Program-made: the position numbers and the translations under genes
Source: Pleurocapsales cyanobacterium LEGE 06147
GTDB taxonomy: Bacteria > Cyanobacteriota > Cyanobacteriia > Cyanobacteriales > Xenococcaceae
Assembly (NCBI GenBank): GCA_015207585.1
Contig: JADEWQ010000009.1
Coordinates: forward strand, 1-64,000
Length of the DNA: 64,000 nt
Reading direction: 5' to 3'
The notes under the pieces: generated by a model
Told to the model about the DNA's origin: nothing
Database searches by the model: none
What the model saw: the letters and a program-made list of their open reading frames with translations, nothing else
Part shown: positions 3,896 to 64,000 of the stretch, piece by piece
Layout of the letters: every line of letters begins with the position of its first letter
How positions within the stretch are numbered: the first letter of the stretch is position 1

Positions 3896-4651
3896 TTAGG
3901 CTGCTAAATGAGAACTCATCTCGGAGAAAAATGTTACCTTGCTACCGTAAGCACGATAGAGATTTTCTTCCTGCAAAACTTCTTTCCTATCTCCAACAGC
4001 AACTAGTTCTTTATTAAGCAAAATTAGCTCGTCGAAATTAGTAATAGATTCGCCCAAATCGTGGTTAATTACCAAAATAATTTTACCTAAATCTGCTAGT
4101 TCGTGAAAAATATTAAAAATAATGTTTTCTGTCTTTTGGTCTACCCCGACAAAAGGCTCGTCAAAAAAGAAAATATCTGCTTCTTGTGCCAGCGATCGCG
4201 CTAAAAATACTCGCTGTTGCTGTCCGCCAGAAAGTTGACCGATAGGACGATTTTTATAAGCTTCCATCTGCACTTTGGCTAGTGCTTCCATCCCTTGGCG
4301 ATGGCTGACAGTAGAAAAACGCCGAAACCACCCCGTTTTCCTTACCCTACCCATCATTACTACATCCCAAACCGTCACGGGATAAGTCCAATCGATCTGC
4401 GATCGCTGAGGTACGTAAGCTACTTTTTCTAAACAATTTTGTAAAGGTTGACCATCATACAACACCGTACCGACTCGAACGGGAATCAATCCCAACATAG
4501 CTTTAACCAATGTACTCTTACCCGCACCATTGGGACCAAATACCCCCGTTACTTTTCCTGGTAATACTTCTAGACTGATATTGTGTAACGCCTCTACTGT
4601 CCGATAGTACACTCCTAAATTATTAATCGCGATCGCTGCCGTACCATTCAT
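3896..4651 (-). CDS. mntA: Manganese-type ABC transporter ATP-binding protein
   Basis: Cytoplasmic ATPase that powers the neighbouring metal permease. The 251-residue protein has Walker A GPNGAGKS near residue 40, the signature [16 protein letters not shown] near residue 140, Walker B DIFFFDEP and a switch His in VINHDLGE. The YVPQRSQIDWTYPVTVWDVVMMGR stretch is characteristic of the metal-chelate ATPases ZnuC/MntA. The gene is the first of a leftward mntA-mntB pair and diverges from mntC across a 168-base region that contains phased repeats. Zinc specificity cannot be excluded from the ATPase alone. Confidence 0.88.
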   Translation of the reverse strand: MNGTAAIAINNLGVYYRTVEALHNISLEVLPGKVTGVFGPNGAGKSTLVKAMLGLIPVRVGTVLYDGQPLQNCLEKVAYVPQRSQIDWTYPVTVWDVVMMGRVRKTGWFRRFSTVSHRQGMEALAKVQMEAYKNRPIGQLSGGQQQRVFLARSLAQEADIFFFDEPFVGVDQKTENIIFNIFHELADLGKIILVINHDLGESITNFDELILLNKELVAVGDRKEVLQEENLYRAYGSKVTFFSEMSSHLAA

Positions 4652-4742
4652 CTAAATTCCTCCCGTAGTCAATCTCGTTTGTTTTTGTTGTGACACGGTT
4701 TTACCCTTTATTCCTCTGTCAAAAGCACAATTTGCTGACAAA

Positions 4743-4781
4743 TATGAAAAGAATATGATAAACATTATGAAAGGATTATGA
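4743..4781. promoter_or_regulatory. Four phased TATGA direct repeats in the mntA/mntC divergent promoter
   Basis: TATGA occurs at 4743, 4754, 4766 and 4777, i.e. with 11-12-11 base spacing, one per helical turn. Direct repeats with this spacing are the usual target layout of OmpR/PhoB-class response regulators. In Synechocystis, Mn transport is repressed by the OmpR-class regulator ManR, so this is a plausible ManR-type site controlling both directions. The repeats are seen directly; the binding protein is inference. Confidence 0.55.
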
Positions 4782-4819
4782 AAAAAAAGCAATAGGATTT
4801 ACTCTCGATCGCGATAGAA

Positions 4820-5845
4820 ATGGTCTCAAATATGTCAGCACGATTCGGTCAAAGGAAAACAGCAGTCCAAATATTTAGCATCAAATCCAGATGGTTAGCA
4901 GTCGTAGGTATTTTTATCGGAATTTGGTTGGGTAGTTGTGAATCCCAAACTCCTGGTAGCGATCGAACAGATCCTAGAAATAGACCGCAAGTCGTTTCTA
5001 CTAGCACGATTATTGCAGACTTAACTACTCAAGTAGGTGGGGATGAGATCGACCATACAAGTATTCTCCAACCCGGTACAGATCCCCATATCTACGAACC
5101 TACACCGAAAGATAGTATTGCTTTAGAACAAGCAGATCTAATTCTTTATAACGGCTACAATCTCGAACCAGGACTGATTAGACTGATAAATGCAGCTGGG
5201 ATTGGAGGAAAAAAATTTGCTGTCGGGGAAGTAGTTACACCCCTCGATTTTGAATATCAAGGACAAACACAACCCGATCCTCACGTCTGGGGAGATGCCA
5301 AAAATGCGATCGCTATGGTAGAGGCAATTCGCGATCGATTAATTGAACTATCTCCAGAAGACGAAGCAGAATTTACAGCTAACGCAGCACAACTAATAGA
5401 AGAATTGAGGCGTTTAGATACTTGGATTGCCGAGCAAATACAAACTATTCCCGAAACTCAACGCCAGCTAGTTACCACCCACGATGCGTTTCAATATTAT
5501 GCTAATGCTTATGGTTTAGAAGTAACTGGTACTCTCATTGGTATTAGTACGGAAGAACAACCAAGCGCACAAACAGTCAAAAATTTAGCCGATGCCATCA
5601 GAAAGGCTAATGTTCCTGCTATTTTTGCCGAAACAACTATCAATCCTCAACTGATCGAAACCGTAGCCGCAGAAGCAGGAGTAAAGCTAGCACCGCGAGA
5701 ATTATATTCCGATTCCATTGGCGCACCAGGTAGTGAAGGAGATAGTTATATAAACATGATGATTGCCAATACTCGCACTATTGTGGAAGCTTTAGGCGGA
5801 CAGGATCGGGATTTTGAATTTTCTAATTCTGTTAAGGATAATTAA
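4820..5845 (+). CDS. mntC: Manganese ABC transporter substrate-binding lipoprotein
   Basis: Cluster A-I solute-binding protein that captures Mn2+ in the periplasm for the MntAB importer. A hydrophobic segment (residues about 26-40) ends in GSC, a plausible lipobox. Four expected metal ligands are visible: His in DPHIYEP, His in DPHVWGD, Glu in FAETTINPQ and Asp in YSDSIG. Glu at the third position, instead of the His seen in zinc binders, is the MntC/PsaA pattern. A linker EEQPSA also matches the family. Length 341 residues is normal. An ATG 12 bases downstream (4832) is an alternative start. Divergent from mntA, unlike the single mntCAB operon of Synechocystis. Confidence 0.9.
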   Translation: MVSNMSARFGQRKTAVQIFSIKSRWLAVVGIFIGIWLGSCESQTPGSDRTDPRNRPQVVSTSTIIADLTTQVGGDEIDHTSILQPGTDPHIYEPTPKDSIALEQADLILYNGYNLEPGLIRLINAAGIGGKKFAVGEVVTPLDFEYQGQTQPDPHVWGDAKNAIAMVEAIRDRLIELSPEDEAEFTANAAQLIEELRRLDTWIAEQIQTIPETQRQLVTTHDAFQYYANAYGLEVTGTLIGISTEEQPSAQTVKNLADAIRKANVPAIFAETTINPQLIETVAAEAGVKLAPRELYSDSIGAPGSEGDSYINMMIANTRTIVEALGGQDRDFEFSNSVKDN

Positions 5846-5915
5846 TTTATTAATATATAGTAATTCTCAGTTAAGTTCGAGCAGATAATAAGAATCAGGG
5901 AAGAATTAATCAACT

Positions 5916-6665
5916 TTAATTACTGTTACTGTCAACTTTTATCCGTCCATCTTCTAATTCGATAATTCGGTCGGCTACGTCCAAAATACGGTTATCATGA
6001 GTAACGATAAGGATAGTACATCCTTGTTCTTTGGCTAGTTGCTGCATCAGTTCCACTACGCCACGACCGGATTTACTGTCGAGTGCAGCAGTAGGTTCGT
6101 CGGCTAAAACCATTTTGGGATGACTGACTAAAGCACGAGCGATCGCTACTCTTTGTTTTTGTCCTCCAGAAAGATTGTGGGGATGGTAATCTATATGGTC
6201 GCCCAATCCTACTTCTTCTAATATAGCGGTTGTTTTTGCCTTGATTTCCTGCGAGGATAGTCCCTCGTGCAACTCCAAAGACATTTGCACATTTTGTCTG
6301 GCAGTTAGAGATTCTAATAAGTTATGCGCCTGGAATATATAACCAATATTTTTTCTAATCTCAACTAGTATACTTTTTTTTGCTCCCACTAATTCTTGAC
6401 CTAAAACTTTCAGGCTACCTGACTGTGGCGATCGCAGTCCACCTATCAAAGTTAACAGAGTAGTTTTTCCCGATCCCGAAGGTCCTCTTAAGATTACTAC
6501 TTCTCCCGCTTGAAGTTGTAAATTAATATCAAATAAAATTTGCTTTCTTAACTGTCCTTGTCCAAAAAAATGATCGAGATTGTTAATTTCTACTATTAGT
6601 TTTTGAGGTTGAGTTAATTGTTGTTGATTATTAGGTATTAGAGAATTATTATTATATTTATTCAT
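5916..6665 (-). CDS. devA: DevA-family ABC exporter ATP-binding protein
   Basis: ATPase of a DevBCA-type exporter (MacB/LolD-like class). Visible motifs are Walker A GPSGSGKTT near residue 60, the signature [15 protein letters not shown] and Walker B MVLADEPTAALD. The GYIFQAHNLLESLTARQNVQMSLEL stretch is typical of cyanobacterial DevA. It is the last gene of a leftward devB-devC-devA run, 52 bases after devC. In Anabaena, DevBCA exports heterocyst glycolipids, but paralogues are common in non-heterocystous cyanobacteria, so the substrate here is unknown. Confidence 0.87.
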   Translation of the reverse strand: MNKYNNNSLIPNNQQQLTQPQKLIVEINNLDHFFGQGQLRKQILFDINLQLQAGEVVILRGPSGSGKTTLLTLIGGLRSPQSGSLKVLGQELVGAKKSILVEIRKNIGYIFQAHNLLESLTARQNVQMSLELHEGLSSQEIKAKTTAILEEVGLGDHIDYHPHNLSGGQKQRVAIARALVSHPKMVLADEPTAALDSKSGRGVVELMQQLAKEQGCTILIVTHDNRILDVADRIIELEDGRIKVDSNSN

Positions 6666-6717
6666 GAGCTAACGTTTGACATCTATTATCTATTACTCAT
6701 CGCTAATTTCTTATTAT

Positions 6718-7866
6718 CTAAAATATATCTGCTGGATCGGCTGCACTTAATTTTCTAACCGCAATTGCCCCCGATACACAACACATAATAATGGTAAGAA
6801 TCAAAACAAGAACTGCTCTGTTTAAAGTCATTAGAATGGGCAAATTTGTTGCTTGAGCAGCTAGAAAATATAAACCTTGAGCAATAGCAAGACCAGGAAT
6901 GAAACCGAGTAAAGCAAGAATAACTGCTTCTTGAAAGACGACCATTACAAAATAGCTATCTCGATATCCCATCGCTTTTAAAGTGGCATATTCTGAAAGG
7001 TGATCGGTAACATCTGTATATAAAATTTGATAGACAATAACTGTACCAACTATAAAACCGATAGCTGTTCCCAAAGTAAAAACAAAACCTATAGCTGTAC
7101 TATTTTGCCAGTAGTTTATTTCGTGCTGAATAAATTCTTCTTTGGAGAAAACTTCGACATCTTTAGGTAACTTTTGTCTTAGCTGAGCGAGAACAATATC
7201 TAAATTTGCTCCCGATTCTAGCTTAATAACACCAATATCAACTAACCCTCGCTCGCGATCGGGAAAAATGCGTAAAAAGTTAATATCGCTGGTAATAATA
7301 TTGCCATCCGCTGCAAAAGAGGCACCGAGAGAGAATAAACCTCTAGCTCGAACGCGACGAGAAGATACTTCTGTAACGGCTGGTCGATCCTGTTGGAGTA
7401 ACTCGGGAATCGGACCAAATTCGGGACGAGATTGTTCGTCAAACAAAACTACATCTTGCAATTTAATTTGGTCGAGATTTTCTGCCAAACCTGGTAAATC
7501 GAGAATATTATTTGCCGGATTAAATCCGATTACTAGTAAATTGCGCGTGTTGCGCTCAACGGGATTTTTCCAATTACCAAAATTAAGATAGACAGAACTA
7601 GCAGACTCTACTCCATCAACTGCTAAAGACTCATATAAACGTCGATCGGAAAAAGTTCTGGTAAAGCCAAGGGCATCAGATTGGGGACTCATTAAAAAAA
7701 TATCCCCATTAAAAGCTTGATGCAAAATAACGCTACTGTCAAACAAAGCATTCTGAAATCCTAACTGTATAAACATCAGCATGTCAGCAAAACCAATTCC
7801 AGCTAGGGCAATCAGCAGACGCATTTTTTCGTGAGTTAGTTGTAACCAAGCTAAAGGGGTTTTCAT
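6718..7866 (-). CDS. devC: DevC-family ABC exporter permease
   Basis: FtsX/MacB-type permease of 382 residues. One membrane helix near the N-terminus (residues 17-37) is followed by a large periplasmic domain and three helices in the last 130 residues (about 255-280, 305-330 and 345-370), the standard layout for DevC. The N-terminus MKTPLAWLQLTHEKMRLLIALAGIGF is characteristic. It lies between devB and devA in the same direction with 45- and 52-base gaps, consistent with one operon. Confidence 0.87.
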   Translation of the reverse strand: MKTPLAWLQLTHEKMRLLIALAGIGFADMLMFIQLGFQNALFDSSVILHQAFNGDIFLMSPQSDALGFTRTFSDRRLYESLAVDGVESASSVYLNFGNWKNPVERNTRNLLVIGFNPANNILDLPGLAENLDQIKLQDVVLFDEQSRPEFGPIPELLQQDRPAVTEVSSRRVRARGLFSLGASFAADGNIITSDINFLRIFPDRERGLVDIGVIKLESGANLDIVLAQLRQKLPKDVEVFSKEEFIQHEINYWQNSTAIGFVFTLGTAIGFIVGTVIVYQILYTDVTDHLSEYATLKAMGYRDSYFVMVVFQEAVILALLGFIPGLAIAQGLYFLAAQATNLPILMTLNRAVLVLILTIIMCCVSGAIAVRKLSAADPADIF

Positions 7867-7911
7867 CTTAAAAAAGGTAAAAGAAAAAAAGATATTTTAC
7901 ATTTTTAATTT

Positions 7912-9207
7912 TCATAGGTGAATTTTTGTAATTACCTTGGAGTTAGTTAAACCAGAAACGCGATCGCTATCTTCTTTATTTAGACGAATTTTGACTTCTA
8001 CTACCCTGCTATCCACATCAGCAGCCGGATCGGTATCGAGAACGTCTCGTTTGCCAATTTGTAATCCAATTTGACTGACAGTTCCTGCTAGTTTGTCTTC
8101 AAATGCTCCTGTTTCACTGGTAATGGTTGCTTGCTGTCCGAGACGAACTTTGGCAATATCGCTCTCGTAAACTTCGGCAACTACCATCATTTGTTCGGTT
8201 TGCCCAAATTCGACTACGCCTAGATCTTGACCGACTAATTCTCCAGGATAGGCATTAATTTTCAGCACTTGACCGTTCGTAGGAGCTATTACATAAGTTA
8301 ATTTCAGATCCTCTTCTGTCTGTTTTAGAGCAGCAGTTGCTCGTTCCACTTCTGCCTGGGCTTGTTGTACGTCTACATCCCGTACTTCGGCAATACTATC
8401 GAGAGTTGCCGTCGCTTCAGCGATTTGCTCTTGTAAACTTTCTCGTTGTTGTTGTGCGGTTGCCTGAGCTTGTTTGATTTGTTCTTGAAGGGTATCTAAA
8501 GTTTTATTGTAGCTAGCTTGCGCTTCGGTCAGATTTTCTCGGGCAGTGTCTAAAGTTAATCGACGAGAATCTAATTCCGATTCAGAAATTACTCCTTCTC
8601 GAGCTAATTGGTGGTACCTTTGAAATTCCCTTTCGGCATTGCGTAATTCTGCTTTTAAGCGGTCGATAGTAGCTAATCTTTCTTCTGTCTCTCTTTGAAG
8701 TTGAGCTTGTAAGCGGGCAACTTCTGCATCGTTGGCAGCGATTTCTCCTTGAAGTTGGGCTTGTAGACGTTTAATAGTCGCTTCTTGAGCTTGTATTTCT
8801 CCTGTTTTTGCTCCTGCTAAAACAATTGCCAGATTGGCTCTAGCTACTTTTACATCTTGCTCGGCTACTTCTAAAGCAGCGGTAGCGCGATCGTGATTAT
8901 CTAAAATGGCAATAGTTTGTCCGGCAGAAACGCGATCGCCTTGTTTGACTAACAACTGTCCTATTCTCGTTCCACCTAAGTCTGGGGGTGGAGCTAGTTG
9001 AATTACTTCACCTTCTGGTTCGAGTCGTCCTAAAGCAGTTACTGCCCTAATTGCTGGAGCCTCAGTCGCTGGCGGGATGGGTTCGGTAGACTCTCGATTG
9101 CTAATTACATAGACTGCCGTAGCACCGATAACTACAATTCCAGCTATCGATAGGGGCAATATCCACTTTTTTTCTGGCTTGAACCAAGAAATTCGCTCTA
9201 GGCTCAT
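7912..9207 (-). CDS. devB: DevB-family membrane fusion protein
   Basis: HlyD-like periplasmic adaptor that links the DevCA pump to an outer-membrane TolC-type channel. The 431 residues show an N-terminal membrane anchor (about 17-37), a split biotinyl-lipoyl-like motif (GEVIQLAPP and GQTIAILDNHDRA on one side, ITYVIAPTNGQVLKINAYPGE-like on the other) and a long coiled-coil hairpin rich in Gln, Glu and Ala (about 115-295). It is the first gene of the leftward devBCA run. Its promoter region faces a divergent TetR gene and contains a tandem repeat. Confidence 0.87.
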   Translation of the reverse strand: MSLERISWFKPEKKWILPLSIAGIVVIGATAVYVISNRESTEPIPPATEAPAIRAVTALGRLEPEGEVIQLAPPPDLGGTRIGQLLVKQGDRVSAGQTIAILDNHDRATAALEVAEQDVKVARANLAIVLAGAKTGEIQAQEATIKRLQAQLQGEIAANDAEVARLQAQLQRETEERLATIDRLKAELRNAEREFQRYHQLAREGVISESELDSRRLTLDTARENLTEAQASYNKTLDTLQEQIKQAQATAQQQRESLQEQIAEATATLDSIAEVRDVDVQQAQAEVERATAALKQTEEDLKLTYVIAPTNGQVLKINAYPGELVGQDLGVVEFGQTEQMMVVAEVYESDIAKVRLGQQATITSETGAFEDKLAGTVSQIGLQIGKRDVLDTDPAADVDSRVVEVKIRLNKEDSDRVSGLTNSKVITKIHL

Positions 9208-62407: not shown

Positions 62408-62576
62408 ATACTAAATAGATCTCTTAATTAAATTAGATCGATAAAATTCCGCTCGTTGGGGTTTAATTTTTAGGTAACATGGTATACTAATAATGTTTGA
62501 CCGTGAAAAAAGACCTTGAGAGTCAGGCTTAATAGTTTATTAGCCGACTTTATTTTCGGGTAAGATCTGGTATATT

Positions 62577-62650
62577 CGGGGCGTAGCGCAGCTTGGTAGC
62601 GCACCACTTTGGGGTAGTGGGGGTCGTGGGTTCAAATCCCGCCGCTCCGA
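62577..62650 (+). tRNA. trnP-GGG: tRNA-Pro (anticodon GGG)
   Basis: 74 bases folding into a cloverleaf. The acceptor stem CGGGGCG pairs with CGCTCCG (one G-U). The D arm contains AGCGCAGCTTGGTAGCGC, the anticodon stem CCACT/AGTGG encloses TTGGGGT with anticodon GGG at 62611-62613, and the T arm is GTGGG-TTCAAAT-CCCGC. The discriminator is A62650; CCA is not encoded. No intron. Confidence 0.95.
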
Positions 62651-62656
62651 TTTAAT

Positions 62657-62690
62657 GAAAAACCTTCTCTGGTGAGAGGGTTTTGTTGTT
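62657..62690 (+). terminator. Terminator after tRNA-Pro
   Basis: AAAACCTTCTC and GAGAGGGTTTT form a stem of about ten pairs with one mismatch around TGGT, ending in a T-rich run (TTTTGTTGTTTT). Confidence 0.75.
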
Positions 62691-62905: not shown

Positions 62906-63814
62906 ATGATTTCAGAAATTCTAGCATTAGAGCCTGTTTTTGCTCGACACGAAACTTTTTACCCTCGGTTTGGCTGGCTTAAAAAGGGGTTCGATCGGGC
63001 AGAAGAAGATTCGGAGATTTTTCTGCGGGAAGATGCACCTGTACTTTTAGGTGTGGGAAAGAACATGGTGCGTTCTATTCGCTACTGGTGTCAAACGTTT
63101 AAAGTTTTAAAAGAGGACAGTCCTGCTGATTTTGGCAAACAGCTTTTTTCTAATAACGGCTGGGATTCTTTTTTAGAAGATCCAGCTTCTCTTTGGTTAT
63201 TACACTGGAATTTATTAAAACCAACCTGTCAAGCTGCCGCTTGGTATTTTACTTTCTTCGTTTTTAGAAAAGTTGAATTTACCGCAGATGATTTATTAAC
63301 AGAATTGAATGAATGGCAAAAAACTTTAAATAAAACTGTGGTCGAATCTTCTTTAAAGAAGGATGTTTCTTGTATTTTGCGAATGTATGGCTCTGAGGAA
63401 ACAAAAGCTGGGTATGTAGAAGACTCAATTGATTGTCCTTTTCAAGAACTAGGAATTATTCAAAACTCTGGAAATAGCAAACGCTACACTTTTAGAACTG
63501 GCGCAAAAGCAAATTTACCTGCCGAAGTTATTGTTGCTGCTTGTTTGGAATATGCTGGCTGGACTAGTCAAGGAGCAAAAACAATTGCAATATCTAGACT
63601 TTTGTACGATCTTGGTAGTCCAGGTCTGGCTTTTAAACTTTCTGAGAGTGTTCTTTGTGAAGCTATTGAAAAGGTGGCGCGGTCTACTGATTCGCTGAAT
63701 CTTTCTGACTCGGCAGGATTAATTCAATTTTCATACTTTTGCGACCCAAAACAACTAGCAGAAGATATTCTAGATAAGTATTATCAGTCCAGAGGCAGTG
63801 GATATAAATCGTAA
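62906..63814 (+). CDS. sspB: DUF4007-family protein, SspB-like subunit of a phosphorothioation system
   Basis: 302 residues. It opens with EPVFARHETFYPRFGWLKKGFDRA and continues with FLREDAPVLLGVGKNMVRSIRYWC, typical of DUF4007. In the Ssp DNA phosphorothioation system (SspA desulfurase, SspB, SspC ATPase, SspD PAPS-reductase-like), SspB is the DUF4007 nickase. Its stop (63812-63814) overlaps the start of the next gene by one base (TAATG). The assignment to Ssp rests on family recognition and on this coupling; the rest of the locus is beyond the edge. Confidence 0.75.
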   Translation: MISEILALEPVFARHETFYPRFGWLKKGFDRAEEDSEIFLREDAPVLLGVGKNMVRSIRYWCQTFKVLKEDSPADFGKQLFSNNGWDSFLEDPASLWLLHWNLLKPTCQAAAWYFTFFVFRKVEFTADDLLTELNEWQKTLNKTVVESSLKKDVSCILRMYGSEETKAGYVEDSIDCPFQELGIIQNSGNSKRYTFRTGAKANLPAEVIVAACLEYAGWTSQGAKTIAISRLLYDLGSPGLAFKLSESVLCEAIEKVARSTDSLNLSDSAGLIQFSYFCDPKQLAEDILDKYYQSRGSGYKS

Positions 63815-64000
63815 TGACTAATAAGGCACTTTCTACGGAGCGTTCAAGACGGTCGTCACAAGCTGCCGAGGTTTCCTCGGCAGACGCGACCTCCTCTGGA
63901 GGTTTCCTCCAGAGACAGCTCCTTCATTATTTCAGCCTCAACCGTCGCTACTCTCGTTCGGTTAATTTAGAGCGAGATTTAGAACAACCAGATGCGTTAG
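63814..64000 (+). CDS. Start of the next Ssp-locus gene (probable SspC-like ATPase), truncated by the window
   Basis: The ATG overlaps the DUF4007 stop, so the genes are coupled. The first 62 codons stay open to the window end: MTNKALSTERSRRSSQAAEVSS at first, then FLQRQLLHYFSLNRRYSRSVNLERDLEQPD. The section about 13-35 is encoded by two tandem hairpins and looks like an in-frame insertion. SspC is expected after SspB; the Walker A motif is not yet reached, so the identity is inferred from order. Confidence 0.55.
   Translation, partial: MTNKALSTERSRRSSQAAEVSSADATSSGGFLQRQLLHYFSLNRRYSRSVNLERDLEQPDAL
63863..63914. repeat. Two tandem GAGG-TTT-CCTC hairpins inside a coding region
   Basis: CTGCCGAGG-TTT-CCTCGGCAG (63863-63883) and CTCTGGAGG-TTT-CCTCCAGAG (63894-63914) are two perfect 9-bp hairpins with the same loop and inner GAGG/CCTC core, 10 bases apart. 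Both lie within the start of the gene at the window edge and keep its frame. Confidence 0.7.

Follow-up and report, generated by a model that had tools for sequence, protein, structure and literature searches.

A probable complete SspABCD-SspFGH DNA phosphorothioation restriction-modification locus in a Xenococcaceae cyanobacterium

Known Ssp systems and the genes of this locus

An Ssp system with an SspFGH restriction partner has been described from Vibrio anguillarum FF-93 (Wang et al. 2021, PMC8092258). In the part of that paper drawn on here, SspBCD and IscS give a single-stranded phosphorothioate at 5'-CCA-3', and SspFGH damages unmarked DNA and is toxic without the mark, with F, G and H each needed. 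The nickase role of DUF4007 proteins is likewise a literature claim (PMC8092258, same part), the excerpts used of PMC12839542 model DUF4007 as a three-part HTH/wHTH DNA-binding protein, and those of PMC10853773 regard SspB as the triple-wHTH recognition part. In SspABCD-SspE systems the same modification genes go with SspE, a single PT-sensing effector. Cyanobacterial Ssp genes have already been mentioned in the literature, at least in the form of SspBCDE (PMC11265339, in excerpt).

The window analysed here, 64,000 nucleotides of DNA, comprises positions 1-64000 of contig C198, which is 73,962 bases long, so that 10 kb could be read past the window in the same numbering. A 12-kb stretch of C198 (L002) is converted to window numbering by adding 61999 to its positions. 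Further ssp genes stand at the start of another contig of this genome, C139, of which a 16.8-kb stretch (L061) was taken. The features are as follows.

Contig C198, window numbering
62576..62651, + strand: tRNA-Pro(GGG), left neighbour, without evidence of locus membership or of an attachment-site role
62659..62684, + strand: terminator-like hairpin of 11 pairs, 4 of them G-C, directly after the tRNA and before sspB
62906..63814, + strand: sspB (DUF4007), intact, 302 aa; Pfam PF13182, PADLOC SspB, PDB 6juf
63814 to 67482, + strand (5' part, 63814..64000, within the window): sspC, 1222-aa ATPase; PADLOC SspC, E 0
67948-68166, + strand: Phd-type antitoxin, 72 aa; Pfam PhdYeFM, 1e-10
68163-68549, + strand: PIN toxin (PIN-domain protein), 128 aa; Pfam PIN, 3e-14
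69612-70412, + strand: sspD, 266 aa; PADLOC SspD, 1.8e-114; Pfam PAPS_reduct, 1.3e-13
70416-72272, + strand: sspF, 618 aa; PADLOC SspF, 7.1e-233
72269-73837, + strand: sspG, 522 aa; PADLOC SspG, 7.9e-200
73839-73962: end of a high-copy, IS-like repeat, inside which the contig stops
Contig C139
1-123: repeat end, opposite to the one closing C198
125-5461: sspH, 1778 aa; PADLOC SspH, E 0 over 1-1765 of 1766 positions
5466-6650: sspA, 394 aa, cysteine desulfurase; PADLOC SspA, 5.1e-142, and DndA, 1.2e-142

A sequence-only reading of the window had placed an SspB-like DUF4007 gene at its right edge, and this was borne out. The product of the reading frame at 62906-63814 matches Pfam PF13182 over its full length (E 1.1e-99, residues 12-293 on profile positions 1-288 of 288), the PADLOC SspB profile PDLC02768 (E 3.5e-123) and, by phmmer, PDB 6juf/6lb9, entered as SspB protein and DUF4007 domain-containing protein (E 2.2e-60), with zero NCBIfam matches at E up to 1. 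By sequence comparison these DUF4007/SspB scores are too large for chance, and the profile found is DUF4007 rather than any other family, so the assignment stands. The one-base overlap with a second gene was also confirmed: the next reading frame begins at 63814 and is open at the window edge, and on the full contig it is sspC.

The gene order on C198 is sspB-sspC-[Phd/PIN toxin-antitoxin insert]-sspD-sspF-sspG, all on the + strand. The SspC and PAPS-reductase-type SspD looked for past position 64000 thus lie within 10 kb of the edge, together with SspF and SspG, and sspB, the sspC ATPase and the PP-loop/PAPS-reductase-type sspD form a cluster, as an SspABCD module requires. The PP-loop SGGKDS of SspD and its six cysteines are invariant in all nine aligned relatives, and a Walker A motif, GTAGDGKT, is visible in SspF. 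NCBIfam named neither SspC nor SspF, and gave SspD below-cutoff PAPS-reductase-type matches only.

With the gene following sspG in a relative (genome G088, locus L036) as query, sspH was located on C139, as two pieces of 69-77% identity; a single further match in this genome, on C229, is partial (33%), which leaves C139 with the sole near-full-length copy. The SspA of a relative gave a match of 81% directly after sspH and weaker class-V matches elsewhere in the genome, so that the desulfurase gene sought in the earlier reading opens C139 together with sspH. In Pfam, SspH matches FtsK_SpoIIIE (1.1e-34) and SspA matches Aminotran_5 (5.9e-74); SspA also matches the solved SspA 6m4j at 4e-53, although higher scores go to general cysteine desulfurases and to DndA (3vax). 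Every ssp gene here (A, B, C, D, F, G and H) matches its own family profile over nearly its full length.

Judged from these sequences, a complete SspABCD-SspFGH locus for restriction-modification by DNA phosphorothioation very probably has its left end at the window edge, in a Xenococcaceae cyanobacterium (the family of Xenococcus sp. PCC 7305). The Ssp-type defence locus proposed earlier is thus represented by all of sspABCD and sspFGH. Its restriction partner is SspFGH and not the SspE that had been named as an example: the one SspE model searched of several, PDLC02792, gave no match in this genome and matched in eight of 14 control genomes. The genes are presumably co-transcribed, and by analogy their products would very likely mark host DNA with sulfur, presumably at a motif, and attack unmarked phage DNA, conferring resistance.

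The mechanism should, by homology, be that of the known system. SspA would draw sulfur from cysteine and SspD, a PP-loop enzyme, would activate or transfer it; SspB (target binding and reported nicking) with the SspC ATPase would insert the sulfur into a single strand of the host's DNA backbone; SspF (a P-loop protein), SspG and SspH (an FtsK-type translocase) would damage DNA without the mark. The FF-93 locus has the same adjacent sspBCD and sspFGH genes and shares with the present one the Walker A motif of SspF, the FtsK/SpoIIIE-like SspH C-terminus and a cysteine desulfurase as sulfur source (PMC8092258, in part). In FF-93, however, that source is iscS (in the part drawn on), whereas here sspA directly follows sspH; and the present locus differs in its cyanobacterial host, in a Phd-PIN pair between sspC and sspD and in an IS-like repeat between sspG and sspH.

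The contig join and two interruptions

Two genes of the SspFGH restriction module, sspF and sspG, lie on C198 and the third, sspH, on C139, presumably adjacent to them. We infer this link from the gene order in relatives, from the sole near-full-length SspH on C139 and from a match of 3 nt. The end of C198 and the start of C139 share zero overlap, and any left repeat end could join any right end. The order F-G-H was seen in six of the 80 best named loci listed, with sspA after sspH within the fetched flank in two of the six. The same order D-F-G-H is found in Chlorogloea purpurea JP212 (L153), Chlorogloea sp. CCALA 695 (L161) and G088, whose SspF, SspG and SspH are 52-66%, 55-61% and 59-68% identical to those here; in L153 and L161 sspA follows sspH, as here. 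Unlike the present locus, none of the three shows an IS-like break between G and H, and that of G088 has a split sspC and HNH/PIN reading frames within it.

In the genome, 22 matches were found to the final 125 bases of C198 and 18 to the opening 124 of C139. Every repeat copy examined (20 of 20 and 18 of 18) is cut by a contig end after 123-127 nt, so that the contig break between sspG and sspH is attributed to an unresolved multi-copy repeat. The ends of the repeat are 10-nt inverted repeats, AGACATCTCC...GGAGATGTCT, with at least 22 and 18 end copies. It is a putative IS-like element, seen by its two ends alone; a repeat end searched in a plasmid collection gave zero matches. The flanks at the C198/C139 pair, GTATAAT and AATGAATTCC, have AAT in common (by eye, with duplication checked at this pair only), a 3-nt match that could be chance. 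Without the repeat and one AAT they read TAATG, in which the sspG stop TAA and the sspH ATG overlap by one base, like sspB and sspC (also by eye). The AAT match and the restored overlap support the join.

The second interruption, between sspC and sspD, measures 2.1 kb and consists of the Phd-PIN pair, whose reading frames overlap (L002:5949-6550, equal to 67948-68549), and untranslated stretches. It is single-copy except for about 100 nt just past the PIN gene (L002:6544-6647), which recur with 73-82% identity at five further genomic sites. The two genes lie between the arms, 15 nt each (87%), of an inverted pair, AAAAGGGCTA/TAGCCCTTTT, that may be chance. PIN and HEPN RNases near Dnd genes (PMC10853773, in excerpt) offer a precedent for a PIN pair here. 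PIN-looking reading frames were also noticed by eye inside the G088 locus (L036:3536-3808 and 8150-8560). Several relatives carry between sspC and sspD a conserved HNH_4 protein some 380 aa long (L036:8621-9760, at 8.8e-11; L038:8693-9814; L045:662-1816, flipped; L050:6132-7268). It is absent here, and a search of the insert for a remnant of this gene found none.

With these two interruptions, part of the operon may have fallen silent, and the alternative of a decaying Ssp locus deserves attention, though we regard it as unlikely. It holds that transcription is cut, that sspH and sspA, perhaps also sspD-F-G, are silent, and that there is neither marking nor restriction. The insert splits sspC from sspD, genes often close together in relatives, and the high-copy repeat that separates sspG from sspH stops a single base short of the sspH ATG, in a system whose F, G and H are each essential according to the part used of PMC8092258. 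The ssp reading frames, however, are all full length against their profiles, which speaks against long disuse; promoters can sit in IS ends; and, given the further class-V matches in the genome, an IscS-type desulfurase could stand in for SspA. The reading as a complete SspABCD-SspFGH locus is preferred.

Flanking genes and further alternatives

The earlier reading noted tRNA-Pro(GGG) to the left, which is present at 62576-62651, and suggested that an island may begin there, at an integration point. The latter idea was not supported. An integrase targeting tRNA-Pro(GGG) might have delivered the ssp genes, since 254 nt separate the tRNA from the downstream start of sspB and, with neither flank in a conserved order in the family, a recent insertion would be allowed. 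We nevertheless consider such a mobile island very improbable: no duplicate of the tRNA 3' end occurs in L002 (12 kb) or L061 (16.8 kb), no integrase is among the eight flanking proteins scanned on the left and right, and the fetched ssp stretches of 18 relatives contain no tRNA-Pro, only one tRNA-Gly and one tRNA-Ala. Nor, in the 14 loci of relatives that were scanned, does tRNA-Pro come within 1.5 kb of the left flank protein.

By eye, the reading frames on the left resemble nusA, a YlxR-type gene and infB. The proteins encoded on the right are a hexapeptide-type transferase, an R3H/AAA protein, an OprB porin and a sugar transporter. The left flank protein is present in 15 of 27 family genomes and the cysE-like protein of the right flank in 26 of 27; no empty site or conserved order was found, the flank proteins lying far apart where comparable (e.g. 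in G001, G008 and G013). To the right of the ssp locus, three reading frames of 86, 97 and 269 aa (L061:8780-10197) resemble by eye one broken FAD-dependent oxidoreductase gene. Terminator-like sites in the region scanned numbered 7 against 6.3 expected and promoter-like sites 26 against 33.7; being at or below chance, these scans carry no weight as evidence.

A Type 4 BREX locus (BrxP, BrxC, PglZ, BrxL) would share the DUF4007, PAPS-reductase and SspC-like ATPase genes, whose homology in the two systems is reported in the excerpted PMC12839542, and SspC does match the BrxC model (6.1e-138) and SspD that of BrxP (1.4e-14), but this reading can be dismissed as exceedingly improbable because the Ssp models fit far better (E 0 for SspC and 1.8e-114 for SspD), PglZ and BrxL are absent among the ten proteins of the locus on C198 and C139 scanned against PADLOC, and SspD is a single 266-aa protein unfused to DUF4007.

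Attack modules beside sspD

SspD was found at E 1e-100 or better in 18 of the 99 other genomes searched, broken in two (G053, G076). The relatives' SspD is 71-95% identical to the present one (main piece), SspB 52-74% and SspC 48-75%. SspF occurs in only two of the 18 fetched ssp stretches of these relatives (G088 and G094); eight of the 18 carry instead at least two of three genes for a helicase, a GHKL protein and a PLD protein. The helicase is of the ResIII/Helicase_C type and PbeA-like (SF2), the GHKL protein has a HATPase_c_3 domain and an MzaB-like N-terminus, and the PLD protein is a weak PLDc_2 match, above the Pfam cut-off in one of three examples. These genes lie beside sspD, often before sspA (L035:6148-10555 on the - strand, L033:5839-16412, L040, L043, L037 and L047), and named loci with the module include L150, L157, L163, L168, L187, L210, L212 and L218. 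In actinobacterial loci the helicase and GHKL genes are mostly upstream of sspA on the other strand, and operon membership is not implied there.

The best 80 named loci, listed from a scan with the SspD alignment, were surveyed up to 11 kb from sspD (cyanobacterial seeds, E 1e-6), including those on contigs cut short. SspC was present in 73, SspB with SspC in 63, SspA in 42 and all of F, G and H in six; helicase with GHKL occurred in 25 (nine with a PLD gene), a GmrSD-type protein in 17 and a DndB-like protein in nine. Among the 41 named loci with full 10-kb flanks, helicase with GHKL was found in 16 and FGH in two. A GHKL protein at E 1e-200 or better was present in 11 of 99 relatives, nine of them among the 18 with SspD (Fisher p 1.3e-6, uncorrected for relatedness), at a line drawn after the list had been seen; at 1e-20, 14 of 100 genomes match.

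Two other proteins were noticed in these loci. One of about 1550 aa, with no Pfam match at 1e-3, lies near sspD in five of the 80 best named loci (L042, at 4513-9171 on the - strand, L050, L049, L172 and others among the loci seen). The other is a reading frame of 1328 residues in the ssp locus of genome G025, contig C199 (L033:7639-11622), whose first 96 residues share 62% identity with the infB N-terminus in the window; TPR repeats and a CHAT-type domain follow by eye, as of a translation-factor domain on a possible effector.

The nearest row to the present SspD in a tree of 92 rows is Xenococcaceae cyanobacterium MO_234.B1 (95% over 203 columns), whose locus has a GmrSD-type protein, an SF2 helicase, a GHKL ATPase and a PLD protein beside sspD. 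The tree, from a quick search with 20 of 89 inner branches starred, keeps 92 of 99 loci after removal of duplicate entries for one protein and of matches shorter than about 180 aa, and 12 short-contig rows were left unlabelled. On this tree the helicase-GHKL label is clustered, with 18 changes against a shuffled mean of 25.4 and none of 500 shuffles as low, and the module is therefore not exchanged freely. The scatter of the FGH label matches that of random placement (9 changes over nine rows, shuffled mean 8.7), with at least four changes forced by starred branches. The attack half FGH looks like a swapped-in part.

The GC values of the genes are 38.3 (B), 40.3 (C), 38.8 (D) and 40.0 (A) against 31.2 (F), 34.5 (G) and 34.3 (H), with 40.9 for the window, so that sspF, sspG and sspH lie about 4-9 GC points below sspB, sspC, sspD and sspA. 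The FGH genes appear to be a cassette that came in between sspD and sspA. The same contrast is clear in four of eight loci (here, L036, L205 and, in the opposite direction, L215); L153 shows it in part and L161, L164 and L207 not at all, which counts against the cassette reading.

It is conceivable, and proposed here only tentatively, that the interval after sspD is a plug-in slot in which one phosphorothioation core meets many interchangeable attack modules, that FGH replaced here the module of the nearest relative, and that the SF2 helicase, the GHKL (HATPase_c_3) protein and the PLD-type protein, often behind a GmrSD-type protein, are an undescribed SspABCD partner across several phyla. Exchange as such is already known, the SspBCD tree not being sorted by partner in the part used of PMC8092258. 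A helicase-GHKL(-PLD) module is a possible further restriction partner of Ssp; no published Ssp link for the helicase-GHKL-PLD module was found in the literature searched, which did not reach subscription papers. The part used of PMC8092258 leaves 2,211 of 2,678 sspBCD loci without a partner, and this module, if it is one, would explain some of them.

The system itself is of a known kind and ordinary, and the recurrent helicase-GHKL(-PLD) module is a lead worth following. The modification enzymes are conserved and the adjacent attack module varies, which makes the modules testable singly against one modification core. With its full SspABCD-SspFGH set, the present cyanobacterium is a candidate host for phosphorothioate DNA in the Xenococcus family.
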